This document shows positions 40,047-50,294 of a stretch of 64,000 nucleotides of DNA, piece after piece. The stretch is taken from NCBI GenBank assembly GCA_015075305.1, contig JABTUS010000001.1:248001-312000 (forward strand), in the 5' to 3' direction. Both the position numbers and the translations under genes were made by a program. Below the pieces are notes generated by a model. The model was not told the DNA's origin. It was given only the letters and a program-made list of their open reading frames with translations, and made no database searches. The stretch's first letter is position 1. Each line of letters opens with the position of its first letter. The DNA is from Opitutaceae bacterium. GTDB taxonomy: Bacteria > Verrucomicrobiota > Verrucomicrobiia > Opitutales > Opitutaceae.

Positions 40047-43000
40047 TCGGATTTTGGCAGATTGTTCAAGAATGTGACTATTTCCCTCAAACGTAGAAGT
40101 GGTTTCGGGGCGGTCAATCGCGGAAACCGGGCACCCGGCATAACAAAGTCATCCCGGCGGCCGCTCGCCCTGAGACATTTCAATCGCGTGGATTCTGTTT
40201 CGACGGAAATGATGCCCTTTTGTTCCGCTCGGATTCGTATTTCCGTCACGAGGAGCAACGCCCTGATGCCATCGCCAAACTTGCCAAACCGGTCGCGCAG
40301 CTCGTTTTCAATGTGTTTCAGTTGATCCAAGCTCTCCGCCATCGCCAGTTTGCGATAGAAATCGATTCGCAGGCGGGTCTCCGATAGGTAGGTGCTGGGT
40401 ATCCGGGCCTGGATGCTGTCGACGGGCACCGCTCCATCGGCGTCATGCTCGGCAGCCTTGACAGCCGTGTAGCTGACCCCATGTCCGCGGGTCCGGGCGC
40501 CGACACCCACGGCAGGATCGCCCTCTCCGACAAAGACGAAGTCAAGTTTGACAGCGGCCCGGATGGCCGCCGCCCGCTTCTCCCCGCGCAGGCGTGCAAC
40601 CGACTGTCGCAGCAACTGGCAGTACAATTCAAATCCCACACCCACAATGTGGCCGCTCTGCTCGGAACCCAGCAGATTGCCCGCGCCGCGCAGCTCAAGA
40701 TCGCGCATCGCAATGCGGAAGCCCGCTCCAAGCTGGTTGTGCGTGCGCAGGGCGTTCAGACGCTGGCGCGCAATCTCCAGCATGCGGGTGTGACGATGAA
40801 GCAGCAGGTAGGCGTACGCCTGGTGCTTGAACCGCCCCACGCGGCCCCGCAACTGATAGAGCTGCGACAGCCCGAATCTGTCCGCACCTTCGATGATGAT
40901 CGTATTGCAGTTCGGAATATCGAGTCCGCTCTCAATGATCGTCGTGCAGACAAGGACTTGGTAGTTGCCGGCCACAAACTCAGTCATGAGTTTCTCAAGT
41001 TCATCGGACTCCATCTGGCCATGCCCGACTCCTATGCTGAGATCCGGCATGAGGCCGCGCAGCCGGGTCGCAACGAGATCTATGGTCTGCACCCGGTTGT
41101 GAAGATAAAACACCTGCCCTCCCCGCGCGATCTCGTGTCGCACCGCATCGACGACGAGCTTCTCATCGTAGGTCTTCACGATCGTCTGAATGGGATGCCG
41201 GTTGGTGGGGGCGGTCTCGATCACACTGATGTCCCTGGCCCCCGTCATCGCCATGTAGAGCGTGCGCGGAATCGGCGTCGCGCTCATCGACATCACATCG
41301 ACCGTCGAGCGCATCGTTTTGAAACGTTCCTTGTGCCGCACGCCAAAGCGCTGCTCCTCGTCGATCACCACAAGCCCCAGATCCTTGAACACAACATCCC
41401 GCTGCAGGAGTCGATGCGTGCCCACCAAAATGTCCACCTGCCCGACGGCGGCCGCCGCGAGCACCCTGGCGATTTCGGTTCGCGTGCGGAAGCGGCTGAC
41501 CATCTCCACGGCGATGGGATATCCCGCCATGCGCTCGCGGAAGGTGTTGAGGTGCTGCTGGGCCAGAACCGTCGTCGGAACAAGGATCGCCACCTGCCTC
41601 CCGCCCTGCACCGCCTTGAACGCCGCGCGCAGGGCCACCTCGGTCTTGCCGAAACCAACATCGCCGCAGATGAGCCTGTCCATCGGGCGGGTCCGCTCCA
41701 TGTCGGATTTCGTTTCCTCTATCGCCTTCAATTGATCCCGCGTCTCCGTGTAGGGAAACGACGCCTCAAACTCCTTCTGCCACTCCCCATCCGGCGGAAA
41801 GGCATGCCCAGGCTGCGCCTCGCGCGAGGCCTGGATCCGCAAAAGTTCCGCAGCCAGATCCAGCGTGGCCCGCTCCGCCGCCTGACGTGTCTTTTCCCAG
41901 CGGCCCGAACCGACCCGCCCCAGTTGCGGTCGCGTCTTGGAAAGGCCGACATAACGGCTGATCAAGTGCGACTCCTGAAGGGGCACGTGCAGGGTCACGC
42001 CATCATCGAACTCCACCGAGATCACCTCGCGCACACCCTGGGCCGTGTCGATTTTCGCGAGTCCGCGAAAAATGGCTATGCCATGCTGCAGGTGGACCAC
42101 GTGATCGCCCTCGACCAGCTCCGAGAAGTCGAGCAGTTGATCGACCTGCGCCCGCTGCACGATCGCGCGTTTTGCCCCGCCGGTGCGTCTTGCGCGCTGC
42201 CGGCCGAACAGCTCGGTCTCGGTCACCACGACAAGGCCGCGCTTTCGGGTCAGACTGCTCCAGCCCAATCGCGCGGTCCCCTCTCCTTCACCCTGCACAT
42301 GGTCCAGATCCGCGATGCCGAAAGTCACCCGAAACCCCTCATTCAACCCGCCTCGCATCCACACGGGTTGAAGTTTTCCGGACATGCCCTCCTCCTCGAG
42401 AATTTCCCTGACCCGCTTCTCCTCGCCCTCCTTCGAGACGACAAATGCCAGCCCGTATCCCAGTCGCTGCCATCCGCCCAGCGTCGTGAGAAACGCCCGG
42501 CGCGCCTCGGCCTCGCCGTGCAGGCGCTCCTGCGCGACCAGCGCATCGCCGGGATAGGAGCGATGATGCTGCAGGCTTTCCGCAGCCCAGACCACCTCCT
42601 CCACATCGTCTCCCTCGAACAGCGCGGAGGTCTCGTCAAACTCACTCAACCCAAGAAGGCGCGCCGTGCGCCCCAGCAGCCCGCTGAACATGCCAGGCGT
42701 TTCGCGCTCCACCGAACTGATCGCCGGCTCGATGCCCGCGGGCTCGACCACGACCAGATGGATCCCGGATGGGAGATAATCCGCGATTCCAATGTTCGAG
42801 GTCGCCAGCTTCAGTCTTGGCGACGCCGACAGCATGATGCGATCCACTCCCGCGCCCGAGCGCTGTGTCACCGGATCAAACGCCCGGATGTCCTCGATCT
42901 CGTCCCCGAAAAAATCGAGCCGGTACGGTTCCGTGGCGGTGATGGGATAGACATCGATGATGCCTCCCCTGACGGCGTAGTGACCCGGCGACTCGCACAC

Positions 43001-43507
43001 CGCCTCGCAGTCATAGTCGATGGCGCGCAGGGTTTCGAGGAGCCCCTGAAACGACTGCACCTGGCCGCGTGCGAGCGAAAACTCGCGTTTGGCGAACGCC
43101 TCCAGCGCAGGCACCGGCTGCGACAGGGCGGCGGGCGTTGTGACCACCATCAGGCCCGGCTCATTCGCCGACATCGCGCCCATCTCGTTCATCCGCCGCG
43201 CCCGCAGCCTTGAGAGCACGGTCTGGCGGTCGGCCGACGCCGAAAACGCCTCGCGCATTTCCATCACACCGGCCCGTGCCTCCGGAAACAGGAGCACATC
43301 AAGACCTCGAGTGTCTCCGCCTGCTCCATGAAAAAAGGCAATGTCCTCCGCGAGTTGTTCAGCCATCCTCAAGTCCTGGGCAAGCACCACCCAGACAGAC
43401 CGCGGATGATCGCGGGTCAGTTGATCGATGACCGCACCGCGGGCCGCCTGACATATCCCAACATGCTTCTGGCGATGAATCCCACTGAGGACGGACATGA
43501 GAAACAA
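40043..43507 (-). CDS. mfd: transcription-repair coupling factor Mfd
   Basis: This 1154-residue protein has full Mfd length. The N-terminal UvrB-like module includes the ESPGHYAVRGGIIDVYP region. The RNA-polymerase-interacting domain begins at GDHVVHLQHGIAIFRG. The RecG-like translocase motor shows CGDVGFGKTEVALRAA near residue 615 and VIDEEQRFGVRHKE near 715. SATPIPRTLYM and QLRGRVGRF follow, then the C-terminal TRCF domain. Mfd removes stalled RNA polymerase and recruits UvrA. Surplus open frames on the other strand (922 codons) are composition shadows. It is followed by surA with a 4-bp overlap. Confidence 0.97.
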   Translation of the reverse strand: MFLMSVLSGIHRQKHVGICQAARGAVIDQLTRDHPRSVWVVLAQDLRMAEQLAEDIAFFHGAGGDTRGLDVLLFPEARAGVMEMREAFSASADRQTVLSRLRARRMNEMGAMSANEPGLMVVTTPAALSQPVPALEAFAKREFSLARGQVQSFQGLLETLRAIDYDCEAVCESPGHYAVRGGIIDVYPITATEPYRLDFFGDEIEDIRAFDPVTQRSGAGVDRIMLSASPRLKLATSNIGIADYLPSGIHLVVVEPAGIEPAISSVERETPGMFSGLLGRTARLLGLSEFDETSALFEGDDVEEVVWAAESLQHHRSYPGDALVAQERLHGEAEARRAFLTTLGGWQRLGYGLAFVVSKEGEEKRVREILEEEGMSGKLQPVWMRGGLNEGFRVTFGIADLDHVQGEGEGTARLGWSSLTRKRGLVVVTETELFGRQRARRTGGAKRAIVQRAQVDQLLDFSELVEGDHVVHLQHGIAIFRGLAKIDTAQGVREVISVEFDDGVTLHVPLQESHLISRYVGLSKTRPQLGRVGSGRWEKTRQAAERATLDLAAELLRIQASREAQPGHAFPPDGEWQKEFEASFPYTETRDQLKAIEETKSDMERTRPMDRLICGDVGFGKTEVALRAAFKAVQGGRQVAILVPTTVLAQQHLNTFRERMAGYPIAVEMVSRFRTRTEIARVLAAAAVGQVDILVGTHRLLQRDVVFKDLGLVVIDEEQRFGVRHKERFKTMRSTVDVMSMSATPIPRTLYMAMTGARDISVIETAPTNRHPIQTIVKTYDEKLVVDAVRHEIARGGQVFYLHNRVQTIDLVATRLRGLMPDLSIGVGHGQMESDELEKLMTEFVAGNYQVLVCTTIIESGLDIPNCNTIIIEGADRFGLSQLYQLRGRVGRFKHQAYAYLLLHRHTRMLEIARQRLNALRTHNQLGAGFRIAMRDLELRGAGNLLGSEQSGHIVGVGFELYCQLLRQSVARLRGEKRAAAIRAAVKLDFVFVGEGDPAVGVGARTRGHGVSYTAVKAAEHDADGAVPVDSIQARIPSTYLSETRLRIDFYRKLAMAESLDQLKHIENELRDRFGKFGDGIRALLLVTEIRIRAEQKGIISVETESTRLKCLRASGRRDDFVMPGARFPRLTAPKPLLRLREIVTFLNNLPKSE

Positions 43508-44242: not shown

Positions 44243-45040
44243 ATGTCCGACTACCGAGTCCATTGCCAGCCCGTGGCCGTCAGCGCTGCGGAAATTCATC
44301 TCTCGCCGCAGGAATCCCATCATCTCGTGGTGGTGAATCGCGCGTCGGCTGGCGCCCGCGTCGTCGCGTTCGACGGCCACGGACGGGAGTGGGAAACCCA
44401 GCTTGTCAAGGCCGACAAACGCGGCGCGCGCCTCCTGATCCGCGCAACACACACCGCCCCGCCGCTTCCCTGCACGATCGAGCTCGCCCAGGCACTGCCC
44501 AAGGGGACGCTCATGGACTCGATCGTTCAGAAGGCGACGGAACTCGGCGTGCGTCGAATCCATCCGATCCTGAGTGAACGCAGCCAGGTTCACCTCGACG
44601 GCGATCGCCGCGACCGCAAGCACGAGCGTTGGCAGACCAGTGCGCTCGAAGCAGCCAAGCAGTGCGGAAACCCCTGGCTTCCCGAGATCGCGCCCATTGC
44701 AGACATGACGGCTTTCCTCGGGCGTGCGTCGACCCACGATCTCGGCCTGATCGCCTCGTTGCAGCCGGAGGCCCGACCGCTTAAGGTCGTGCTCGAAAAA
44801 CACCGCGAGCACCACGGTCGCATGCCCGAACGGACCATCATCCTCATTGGTCCGGAGGGCGATTTCAGTCCTGATGAACTCTCGGCGGCAAAGGCAGCTG
44901 GGTTTCAAGCCGTGACACTGGGTCCGCTCGTGCTCCGCTGTGAAACCGCCACCGTCGCGGCCATCGCGATTCTCCGCCACGAGCTTCTGTCCGCAAAAGA
45001 AAAGGAGGGCGACCTTGCAGGGTCGCCCTCCGGCATATGA
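44243..45040 (+). CDS. rsmE: 16S rRNA m3U1498 methyltransferase
   Basis: This 265-residue SPOUT-class methyltransferase modifies U1498 of 16S rRNA with SAM. It has an N-terminal PUA-like part (HLSPQESHHLVVVNRASAGA), then QALPKGTLMDSIVQKATELG and IHPILSERSQV, and the knot region ILIGPEGDFSPDELSAAKAA with LGPLVLRCETA. The C-terminal tail (KEKEGDLAGSPSGI) is unlike the family because its codons coincide with a terminator hairpin that serves the opposite strand. Confidence 0.95.
   Translation: MSDYRVHCQPVAVSAAEIHLSPQESHHLVVVNRASAGARVVAFDGHGREWETQLVKADKRGARLLIRATHTAPPLPCTIELAQALPKGTLMDSIVQKATELGVRRIHPILSERSQVHLDGDRRDRKHERWQTSALEAAKQCGNPWLPEIAPIADMTAFLGRASTHDLGLIASLQPEARPLKVVLEKHREHHGRMPERTIILIGPEGDFSPDELSAAKAAGFQAVTLGPLVLRCETATVAAIAILRHELLSAKEKEGDLAGSPSGI
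44993..45030 (-). terminator. terminator of the VPD-CTERM gene, inside the rsmE 3' end
   Basis: GGAGGGCGACC (45003-45013) pairs exactly with GGTCGCCCTCC (45020-45030). On the minus strand the hairpin is followed by TTTTCTTTT. It therefore fits as terminator of the gene at 45066-45800, although it is also the last coding part of rsmE. Confidence 0.8.
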
Positions 45041-45800: not shown

Positions 45801-46162
45801 GATGGTGGGTGAAGTTGGAATTGCCAGTGACCTCCGAGTAAGCTGGACCGGTGCCAGCTTCAGAATTTCACACGCAGGTTTTGCAAATAGACTCGCATCT
45901 ATTTGATGATAAAAGCTTTGAACAATTGCTAATCCACGGCTAGAATAAATACGTACCGGCGAAATGCCTCACTCCAAATCATGAATGTGTCACGCCACCC
46001 GACGCTTTCCTGGAAACGCGTAAATACTGTGTGAAGAAACAAGACACGTAGTTACACGTAGGGTCCGCTGGGAATTCCGCGCAGTTGCGCCGACCCTCAA
46101 ATCGCCGCCCGACTCAGCCAGTCTTTCGTGGAATTCGTCCCCTGCCCGCCGCTTCGAGAGCG
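45801..46162. other. 362-bp intergenic region
   Basis: It lies upstream of the VPD-CTERM gene and downstream of the KASIII fusion. It is AT-richer than its surroundings between 45880 and 45960 and probably holds the promoter of the VPD-CTERM gene. I see no RNA gene or repeat in it. Short open frames on both strands are not convincing. Confidence 0.5.
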
Positions 46163-47782
46163 CTACCAAACCAGCAGGCCGCCCGCAAACGTCAGGCCCG
46201 CCCCCACGCTGCAGAAAATGATGCGGTCGCCGGGCTGGAAAATACCTTCCTGCGCCGCCCACCCGAGCGCCATGGAGACCGAAGCCCCGCTCGTGTTTCC
46301 ATAGCGAGAAATCGTCATCACGACCCTTTCGAATGGAATGCCGATGCGCTTGCTGACGGCCCGAAGGATTCTCTCATTCGCCTGATGGGGCACCACCCAC
46401 GCAATATCGTCCGGCGCAAGCCCGTGCCGCTTCAGCGTCGCCTCTATCTGATCCGCAAACCCCACCACGGCGCTCTTGAAAACCAGCGCACCGTTCATCT
46501 GAAGGTAGAAGTCCGCCTGGTCCGCTCCGCCCGGGGCAAGAAACGGCCGCTTCGCCCCCCCTCCGCGGCGCTGAATCGCGGCGAATTGCGTCGCGTCTCC
46601 CGAAAGGGCCATGCGGTGCAGCCGGTGTCCACCCGGAGCGTCGGTCAGAATGGCCGCCCCGGCACCATCTCCAAACAGGAACGCAGTCTCATGATCCTTG
46701 GGATTCGTGATCCGGGAAAGCAGCTCCGCCGTCACCACAATGATATGGCGCGCCGTACCACCGCGTATGAAGGACCGCCCAATCTCAAGCGCATACAGCC
46801 ATCCCGAACACGCGGCATTGATGTCAAACGCCAGCGCCTTCGGGATGCCCAGGTGCATCGCAAGCGCCGAAGCCATGGACGGCACGGGCTGGTCCGGGAT
46901 GATCGTCGCAAGAATGATTCCATCGATCTGCTCGACGGACATCCCCGCCTGCTCCAGCGCATGCTTCACCGCCGTCGCCGCAAGGCTCGTCGCCGTCTCA
47001 TCGTCGCTCGCATACCGGCGTTCCTTGATCCCCGTCAGTCTGAGCATCTCCTCCTCCGTGCGATCGGGAAACGCCCGCAGGATCTCGCTCGTCGGCCGGA
47101 TGTTCTGGGGAACCGCGTACCCCACCCCGGCAATGCACACGGTCTCAGCCGCACAGGAAGCATCCATCGCAGGCTCCACTGCCGGCTTCGCAACACCCCT
47201 GACCGGCACCTGCGCAAGGTACCGGGTGACATCGTCACCCGAAATTCTGCCACCAGGTCCGGTGGCCTGTATACCGGACACCGACGCCGGATCCAGCCCG
47301 GCTTCCTGCACAAGTTTCAACGCCCGGGGAGTCCATTGAGCCCCATTCACTTGCGGCGCGGGGATGGCTGTTGGAGCCCGGCGCACGGGCGCAGGCGACA
47401 CCGAAACCGCAGCCACCGTTGGAGCATGCGTCACCGCGGTCTTGATCGTCTGCGATGGTGCGGCCGCCGTCCCATGGCCGGCCGGAACCACAGCCTCGAT
47501 CGGATCCGTCGATTCAAGGTGCTTCATCGCAATGTCACCCGTCGAAATCTTCAGAAACGGACCGTTGGTCGGAACAATATCACCCGCACGGCAGCGCACG
47601 GCCACGATCTGGCCGTCGCACGGCGCCTCATACTCGAAAACCGACTTGTCGCTCTCCAGTTCGGCTATCTTTTCGCCCTTGGCGATCCTGGAGCCGGGAA
47701 CCACCTTGACATCAATCACGGTGAGCTCGCTGACAGTAGCCCCCATGGAGGGCATCGGTACATCGATAAGAAACGTTTCCAT
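46163..47782 (-). CDS. lipoyl domain - E3-binding domain - KASIII (FabH-like) fusion
   Basis: This 539-residue protein has three parts. Residues 1-82 form a biotinyl/lipoyl domain with the attachment Lys46 in LESDKSVFEYEAP. Residues 85-148 are an Ala/Pro-rich swinging linker. Residues 150-189 form a peripheral-subunit-binding (E3-binding) domain (TPRALKLVQEAGLDPASVSG, TGPGGRISGDDVTRYL). Residues 214-539 form a complete FabH-type ketoacyl synthase III with Cys325 (INAACSGWLY), His466 (VVPHQANERIL) and Asn496 (SRYGNTSGASV). The first two are normally the N-terminus of E2 acyltransferases of 2-oxoacid dehydrogenases, here with the catalytic domain replaced by KASIII. It could channel an acyl-lipoyl group into a condensation with malonyl-ACP. 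The domains are clear; the pathway is inference. Confidence 0.88.
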   Translation of the reverse strand: METFLIDVPMPSMGATVSELTVIDVKVVPGSRIAKGEKIAELESDKSVFEYEAPCDGQIVAVRCRAGDIVPTNGPFLKISTGDIAMKHLESTDPIEAVVPAGHGTAAAPSQTIKTAVTHAPTVAAVSVSPAPVRRAPTAIPAPQVNGAQWTPRALKLVQEAGLDPASVSGIQATGPGGRISGDDVTRYLAQVPVRGVAKPAVEPAMDASCAAETVCIAGVGYAVPQNIRPTSEILRAFPDRTEEEMLRLTGIKERRYASDDETATSLAATAVKHALEQAGMSVEQIDGIILATIIPDQPVPSMASALAMHLGIPKALAFDINAACSGWLYALEIGRSFIRGGTARHIIVVTAELLSRITNPKDHETAFLFGDGAGAAILTDAPGGHRLHRMALSGDATQFAAIQRRGGGAKRPFLAPGGADQADFYLQMNGALVFKSAVVGFADQIEATLKRHGLAPDDIAWVVPHQANERILRAVSKRIGIPFERVVMTISRYGNTSGASVSMALGWAAQEGIFQPGDRIIFCSVGAGLTFAGGLLVW

Positions 47783-47861
47783 GCTCGCTGGTATTCTTGG
47801 TAACGTGGCGCTCCCGGAGAGCCGGTCAATTCCGGTGACTGGGTCGCAAACGGTACCTGTA

Positions 47862-48656
47862 TCAGCCGCGAACGCTGTGCCAAACTCCGAGGCACCGCGA
47901 GATCAATTCCGGCAAATGATTGATCTGAATCATGTTGGGACCATCACTAATGGCATGGTCAGGATCGGGGTGGGTTTCCACAAAAAGCCCGTCCGCCCCC
48001 GCGGCCAGCGCCGCCATTGCAAGCGGCGGTACAAATTCGCGCTGTCCGCCACTTTTCCCCCCAGCCGCACCCGGAAGCTGCACGGCATGCGTGGCATCGA
48101 AAATCGCAGGACACCCATTTGTCTTGAGAATGCCGAACGATCGCATGTCCACCACGAGATTCTGATAACCAAATGTGGTGCCACGCTCCGTCTGCCAAAT
48201 TTCGCCCGCACCGCCCTCCCTCAGCTTGGCAACGACGTGGGTCATTTCCTGCGGCGACAGGAACTGCCCCTTCTTCACATTGACCACCCGCCCTGTGCCC
48301 GCCGCCGCCAGCAGTAGATCAGTCTGGCGACACAGGAAGGCGGGGATCTGCACGGCATCACAGACCGCCGCGACCGGCGCCACCTGATGGCTCTCGTGCA
48401 CGTCGGTGATGATGGGAAACACATAGTCCTTCCGCATCAGGGCCAGCAGTCTCAGGCCCTCGTCCATCCCCGTGCCCCGCTCACCGGCGAGTGACGTGCG
48501 GTTGGCCTTGTCGAAGGATCCCTTGAAAACAATGTTCAGCTCGTGGTGTTTCTCCCGCAGGCGCACGAGCGTCTCGGCAACCGCGCGGCAGACGGACTCG
48601 TTCTCAAGCGAACAGGGGCCCGCGATCAGCAGCAGGCGTTTGGTGTCGAAAAGCAT
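47862..48656 (-). CDS. kdsA: 3-deoxy-8-phosphooctulonate synthase
   Basis: This 264-residue enzyme condenses phosphoenolpyruvate and arabinose-5-phosphate to Kdo-8-phosphate for lipopolysaccharide inner core. It shows [12 protein letters not shown], the substrate loop [34 protein letters not shown] and the C-terminal [20 protein letters not shown] / [17 protein letters not shown]. It starts 6 bp after pyrG ends, a pairing seen in many Gram-negative bacteria. The Cys in the GPCS motif is kept. Confidence 0.96.
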
Positions 48657-48662
48657 GGCGGA

Positions 48663-50294
<1,632 letters not shown>

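Follow-up and report, generated by a model that had tools for sequence, protein, structure and literature searches.

Acyl groups made by 2-oxoacid dehydrogenases leave these complexes as acyl-CoA, by way of the E2 acyltransferase. A gene of an Opitutaceae bacterium raises the question of whether they could also pass from lipoate straight to a condensing enzyme. The gene (46163..47782 (-), ATG start; coordinates without a contig or locus label refer to the window, the whole stretch of 64,000 nucleotides that was analysed) encodes a 539-aa protein in which lipoyl and E3-binding domains are joined to a ketoacyl synthase III (KAS III).

Domain Organization of the Fusion Protein

The order of domains described in the initial annotation, lipoyl, E3-binding and KAS III in a single open reading frame, was borne out by Pfam matches, all above their cut-offs. 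The lipoyl domain (residues 7-79, 47546..47764 (-)) matched Biotin_lipoyl (PF00364) with 48.5 bits at a cut-off of 22.1, and the E3-binding, or peripheral subunit-binding, domain (residues 151-185, 47228..47332 (-)) matched E3_binding (PF02817) with 30.8 bits at a cut-off of 23.7. The KAS III domain (residues 213-539, 46166..47146 (-)) was recognized by ACP_syn_III at residues 319-392 and by ACP_syn_III_C at residues 450-539 (PF08545/PF08541). The top NCBIfam models were beta-ketoacyl-ACP synthases III: PRK09352 scored 312.7 bits, above its cut-off of 249, and TIGR00747 (fabH) scored 288.8, just below its cut-off of 292.1. No 2-oxoacid_dh acyltransferase core (PF00198) was found in the protein by Pfam at E ≤ 0.001, and an ACP (phosphopantetheine) domain was absent among its Pfam matches.

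Lys46 in the motif ESDKS (47645..47647 (-)), the predicted lipoylation site, and the catalytic residues Cys325 (46808..46810 (-)), His466 (46385..46387 (-)) and Asn496 (46295..46297 (-)), which correspond to C112, H244 and N274 of E. coli FabH, all lie at the positions first assigned to them. In an alignment of 48 rows (A1), Lys46 is a lysine in each of the 40 rows that span the lipoyl part, and the triad is unchanged in each of the 38 that span the KAS part. The ESDKS motif is present in 63/63 lipoyl frames collected (41/41 fused and 22/22 separate). The Ala/Pro-rich linker (residues 80-150, 47333..47545 (-)) differs in length between relatives in the same alignment. The AF2 model was confident for the lipoyl and E3-binding domains (blocks with pLDDT of 86-98 and 92-95, respectively) and of low confidence for the linkers between them, with pLDDT <50 over residues 99-145. 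As the model was mediocre for the KAS part (pTM 0.40) and the superposition in the Foldseek rows, which comprised FabHs and other KAS III proteins, was poor, we gave the structure search no weight.

Like PDH E2 and SucB, the protein thus consists of an N-terminal lipoyl domain, an Ala/Pro linker and an E3-binding domain, but it has a KAS III where their catalytic 2-oxoacid_dh domain would be. Lacking the acyltransferase core, it does not fall under the definition of an E2.

Fused and Separate Forms among Relatives

From Opitutaceae-like Verrucomicrobia loci, with frames sorted individually, we collected 41 distinct fused frames. In 17 relatives, the KAS III was encoded by a gene of its own, and the gene next upstream encoded the lipoyl and E3-binding domains (lipoyl-E3BD) in 15 of them; for the remaining two, L017 and L022, the sequence retrieved contains only part of the lipoyl partner or none of it. 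It had been foreseen that the proposal would fall if relatives had the two parts as separate genes and the fusion was an assembly error. Separate genes do exist, but an assembly error as the source of the fusion is ruled out, since the identical fused layout recurs across many independent assemblies.

A scan of bacterial genomes gave 27 loci, of which 26 were close and nearly all were titled Verrucomicrobia or Opitutaceae; L027 (Denitrovibrio), where the match was in the KAS part only (38%), was left out. This one scan, which picks up close relatives only, is also the sampling of phyla beyond Verrucomicrobia. The coverage "1-539" at the 27 loci overstates the fusion, because at 11 of them tblastn joined two neighbouring genes; judged by frames, the 26 close loci comprised 13 single fused proteins and 13 cases with the KAS as its own frame. 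Within the phylum we used the same set of 288 genomes in each query, 25 in the family and 263 outside. None of the 263 matched the fusion query at E ≤ 1e-90, and among the matches listed, those of lipoyl-E3BD outside the family were in frames of at least 400 aa, with one exception of 212 aa (G252). In the search of plasmids, no record covered 80% of the fusion query in one place.

In a tree of KAS domains, made by a quick method and with some long branches flagged, fused and separate forms fell on one side of a split with support 100 and 16 ordinary family FabHs on the other. Of the 17 separate forms, 16 fell into one clade (support 99), which suggests few changes between the fused and split states. 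The KAS domains of L002, a Verrucomicrobia locus, and of L003, a contig titled Candidatus Sumerlaeota, are identical, and L003 is probably mis-binned.

A Third E1 without an E2 of Its Own

In the genome that carries the fusion gene (4.87 Mb, 97.6% complete), E1_dh matches are of two kinds: three are strong (151-280 bits) and four weak (24-35 bits). Because the weak ones fall next to or inside frames that match Transket_pyr, we took them as transketolase-like. Two of the strong E1s belong to systems with an E2: contig C6 carries PdhA-PdhB-PDH E2 (NCBIfam names, PdhB being named by its place and a Transket_pyr match), and contig C3 carries SucA-SucB-lipoamide dehydrogenase (NCBIfam). The third E1 is a fused alpha-beta chain (C1:967409-969442; Pfam E1_dh, Transket_pyr and Transketolase_C), encoded about 670 kb from the fusion gene. 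A profile search of the genome gave no 2-oxoacid_dh match on C1, and the only two PF00198 matches that it gave anywhere were PDH E2 and SucB, so that no hidden third E2 was found. The search for an E1 lacking a normal E2, recommended in the initial annotation, thus turned one up.

The third E1 reaches no NCBIfam cut-off. In a comparison with solved structures, its alpha half scored best with human branched-chain E1 alpha (101 bits, where the top PDH E1 alpha reached 75), and its beta half scored alike with branched-chain and PDH E1.

Co-Occurrence of the Third E1 and the Lipoyl-E3BD Protein

Matches to the third E1 with at least 56% identity were found in 23 of the 25 family genomes. The fusion query matched at E ≤ 1e-90 in 15 of the 25, none of which lacks the E1. 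Of these genomes, 11 encode a fused KAS and 4 (G010, G099, G160 and G283) have a separate KAS gene next to the lipoyl-E3BD gene. The other 8 of the 23 E1-bearing genomes encode a stand-alone lipoyl-E3BD protein without this KAS (solo genomes). A lipoyl-E3BD protein is thus present in 23/23 family genomes with the third E1, and the two family genomes without the E1 gave no lipoyl-E3BD match at E ≤ 1e-5. In a larger set of 252 family genomes, many of them incomplete, both partners were found in 206, the E1 only in 11, the lipoyl-E3BD protein only in 15 and neither in 20 (Fisher p = 7e-13, with genomes counted as independent); at the thresholds used, one partner therefore occurs without the other in 26 of the 252.

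In the fused, split and solo lipoyl-E3BD proteins scanned, the E3-binding domain was found and the E2 core domain was absent. At E ≤ 1e-48, PF00198 matched twice in every one of the 25 family genomes; in G283, the weaker match is in a 336-aa frame. The second match adjoins SucA in the 9 genomes whose fetched stretch shows both, and the stretch of G060 starts at SucB. A third, weaker PF00198 match is present in 9/25 genomes, in frames of 1033-1580 aa. Classified by frame size, these large frames occur in 0/11 fused, 2/4 split, 5/8 solo and 2/2 E1-less genomes (Fisher p = 0.009 for presence of the large frame vs. presence or absence of the KAS, with genomes counted as independent). The one large frame read, that of G018 (L229, partial), has E1, lipoyl and E2 in one chain. 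Another frame, of 1105 aa, in G060 (L228 2236-5550 (-)) comprises E1 alpha-beta and a C-terminal lipoyl domain, with no E2 core, and is thus a further dehydrogenase with rearranged parts.

The 8 of 23 E1 genomes without this KAS speak against a general rule. Since these solo genomes have no such KAS and their FabHs retain the CoA contacts described below, the lipoyl arm must there hand over its acyl group in another way. The group could be taken by the E2 core of another complex or, in 5 of the 8, by the extra large 2-oxoacid_dh frames. These genomes may have gone back to the CoA route by losing the KAS; alternatively, the lipoyl-E3BD protein and the E1 may be the more ancient pair, to which the KAS was joined afterwards.

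The KAS Domain Has Lost Four CoA Contacts of FabH

Thr28, Trp32, Arg36, Arg151 and two asparagines of FabH are named as CoA contacts in the portion consulted of a study that draws them from E. coli structures superposed on the Yersinia enzyme, and Asn247 is named there as a pantetheine contact (PMC4606726). We aligned 58 KAS domains from fused and separate frames to E. coli FabH (L230). All four of Thr28, Trp32, Arg36 and Arg151 were replaced in 58/58 domains: position 28 is R, M or K, position 32 is E in 57 and A in 1, position 36 is L, I or V, and position 151 is H, Q, K, N or F. In the fusion protein itself, R241, E245 and L249 stand at the sites of T28, W32 and R36 (residues 241-249, 47036..47062 (-)), and His364 (46691..46693 (-)) at that of R151, the adenine contact. 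By comparison, all four residues were retained in 16/16 stand-alone FabHs examined from the family and in 7/7 plasmid-borne KAS III proteins of other phyla. Asn247 was retained in 58/58 KAS domains, and Asn210 was lost in them, as it was in the family FabHs. At position 87, Phe in E. coli, all 58 have V or I; this says little, as Phe is present in only 1 of the 16 family FabHs as well.

The Cys-His-Asn triad was present in 58/58 KAS domains, as was R249, and position 214 was K in 56 and R in 2. We take K214 and R249 to be ACP docking residues, and the malonyl-ACP side therefore looks unchanged. The domain resembles FabH in its fold family, catalytic triad and ACP-side residues, but differs from it in the N-terminal lipoyl-E3BD extension and in the replacement of all four contacts; by sequence, it is an altered KAS III. 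The loss of the four contacts is what would be expected if the acyl donor were no longer CoA.

Two further KAS III-like genes of the same genome offer a comparison. An ordinary FabH is encoded on contig C4 (NCBIfam), beside a frame that we take to be PlsX-like. The second, on contig C5 (L030 1501-2529 (-)), matches PRK09258 with 435 bits (cut-off 285) and is presumably OleA-like; it, too, is without the clamp residues, and also without the ACP-side residues. OleA enzymes use acyl-CoA. The loss of the clamp residues is therefore no proof against the use of CoA.

These observations bear on the possibility that the third E1 charges the arm, the acyl group is transferred to CoA on the E2 core of PDH or OGDH, and the KAS uses the acyl-CoA, as if the fusion served proximity only. 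Two E2 cores do exist, 8 of 23 genomes have the lipoyl-E3BD protein without this KAS, and 9 of 25 have the further 2-oxoacid_dh match in a large frame, in one case an E1-lipoyl-E2 chain. Against this stand the loss of the four contacts in every KAS domain of the set and the want, in the lipoyl-E3BD proteins scanned, of a core domain by which they could join an E2 core, and we consider this route unlikely. It is improbable, too, that the KAS is an acyltransferase like ChlB3, which would move the acyl group from lipoyl to ACP or another acceptor with no condensation. Acyltransferases of the KS III fold are described in the excerpt consulted (PMC9573744), and the retained ACP-side residues would suit such a role, but the full triad of condensing KAS III enzymes in 58/58 domains and the beta-ketoacyl-ACP synthases III as best NCBIfam models argue against it.

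A Proposed Lipoate-Primed Condensation

The reading that we hold to be probable is that of a 2-oxoacid dehydrogenase complex in which a KAS III would have replaced the acyltransferase, and an acyl-dihydrolipoyl group would prime condensation with malonyl-ACP directly. In such a cycle, the fused alpha-beta E1 would decarboxylate a 2-oxoacid, which is most likely branched, and carry out the reductive acylation of the lipoyl group on Lys46. The flexible linkers would bring the acyl-dihydrolipoyl arm to the KAS site, where the acyl group would pass to Cys325 without ever becoming acyl-CoA. The KAS would condense it with malonyl-ACP, so that a branched 3-oxoacyl-ACP would enter type II fatty-acid synthesis, and lipoamide dehydrogenase docked on the E3-binding domain would re-oxidise the arm. 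The parts of this cycle that we infer are the lipoylation, the pairing with the E1, the substrate, the direct transfer, the independence of CoA and the product, the last of which is probably used for iso/anteiso fatty acids.

The earlier suggestion that acyl groups made by an E1 on lipoate prime a condensation directly gains support from the E1 without an E2, the co-occurrence and the lost CoA contacts, all read from sequence. With the condensing enzyme at the place of the acyltransferase and the four contacts gone, channelling from lipoate to fatty acids could occur. The solo genomes, the kept Asn247, the OleA-like paralogue, the distant E1 gene, whose product falls below every NCBIfam cut-off, and the 26 of 252 genomes with an unpaired partner are points against this reading.

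The E1 partner could instead be that of PDH or OGDH, in which case the arm would carry acetyl or succinyl and the KAS would make straight-chain or unusual starters. Although the genes for the third E1 and the fusion lie far apart and this E1 is weakly placed among E1 families, its co-occurrence with the lipoyl-E3BD protein and the E2s that PDH and OGDH each have beside them make this very unlikely. A lipoyl domain that serves redox or structural purposes and takes no part in acyl transfer is hardly credible, given the ESDKS lysine in every lipoyl frame collected, the E3-binding domain in fused, split and solo proteins and the strong link to the third E1 in the 252 family genomes.

For the proposed lipoate-primed condensation, the nearest precedent is, by analogy, the BkdABC system of Photorhabdus, in which BkdA is the E1 and BkdC the ketosynthase. 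In the parts consulted of two papers, this branched-chain system is said to form a condensed 5-methyl-3-oxohexanoyl thioester and not only acyl-CoA, BkdB is given an acyl-carrier-protein domain (both PMC4578411), and BkdB is called a holo-ACP (PMC4901931). BkdABC serves the synthesis of iso-fatty acids, stilbene and photopyrones; common to it and the system proposed here is a dehydrogenase system tied to condensation. The two differ, as far as they can be compared by description, in the carrier, which is an ACP in BkdABC and a lipoyl-E3BD protein with no ACP domain by Pfam here. With this carrier, the present system would be an analogue of BkdABC and at most a candidate member. In the Bacillus-type Bkd complex with a free FabH, as described in the text consulted, a 2-oxoacid dehydrogenase likewise supplies KAS III with branched primers (PMC6461809). 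There, however, the E2 releases free acyl-CoA, which FabH takes, whereas here no E2 core was found for the third E1 and the KAS is without the four CoA contacts of FabH.

Branched fatty acids are recorded in the accessible parts of two reports. Iso-C15:0 is the main fatty acid in two of three Lacunisphaera species (Opitutaceae), at 33% and 49%, and these two also contain iso-C13:0 3-OH; the third has iso-C14:0 first and 9% iso-C15:0 (PMC5303756). Anteiso- or iso-C15:0 is high in several tabulated strains (PMC12193912). No description of a lipoyl-KAS III fusion was found in the titles and abstract starts among the matches listed, most subscription journals lying outside this set.

If the proposal is true, enzymes of the KAS III fold would accept acyl groups from lipoate as well as from CoA and ACP. 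The proposal could explain how iso/anteiso chains are primed in these Verrucomicrobia by an E1 without an E2, and would offer a compact module for the production of branched lipids.

Gene Neighbourhoods Hint at an Envelope Role

The gene directly upstream of the fusion, across a 79-bp gap, is kdsA (KDO-8-phosphate synthase; 47862..48656 (-), NCBIfam), and the next one upstream is pyrG (CTP synthase; 48663..50285 (-), NCBIfam and synteny). On the other side, within the conserved neighbourhood, lies the convergent rsmE (44243..45040 (+), NCBIfam and synteny). Among 32 loci with sufficient sequence, 26 have kdsA immediately upstream of the lipoyl gene. The 8 solo genomes share this order: their lipoyl-E3BD gene comes directly after kdsA, and rsmE is on the far side, at most 6 kb away. 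Immediately downstream of the third E1, 18 of 21 loci have kdsC. Further along, lptB is present in 16 of 22 E1 loci, and some of the 22 stop before it could be seen.

As both the fusion and the E1 tend to sit with LPS/KDO genes, their gene context hints at a role in the envelope, such as in branched 3-hydroxy chains of lipid A; envelope chains are suggested by the place of the fusion after kdsA and of its E1 ahead of kdsC and lptB. Taking these hints in, we lean slightly towards a CoA-free complex in which the lipoyl arm would be the acyl donor for C-C bond formation, with a KAS III in place of the E2 acyltransferase, and which may serve branched (3-hydroxy) envelope chains.

On contig C1 of the fusion-bearing genome (L056 9250-18356), the genes after the orphan E1 are kdsC, two small open reading frames, lptB, an hprK-like gene and, later, succinyl-CoA synthetase-like genes, the hprK-like and succinyl-CoA synthetase-like identities being our assumption. 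Adjoining the fusion gene is one for a 244-aa protein that has a VPDSG-CTERM sorting domain (NCBIfam TIGR03778; 45066-45800 (-)). Two long antisense open reading frames, of 572 aa (46085-47803 (+)) opposite the fusion gene and of 922 aa (40445-43213 (+)) opposite a neighbouring gene, are most likely a side effect of codon use at high GC.
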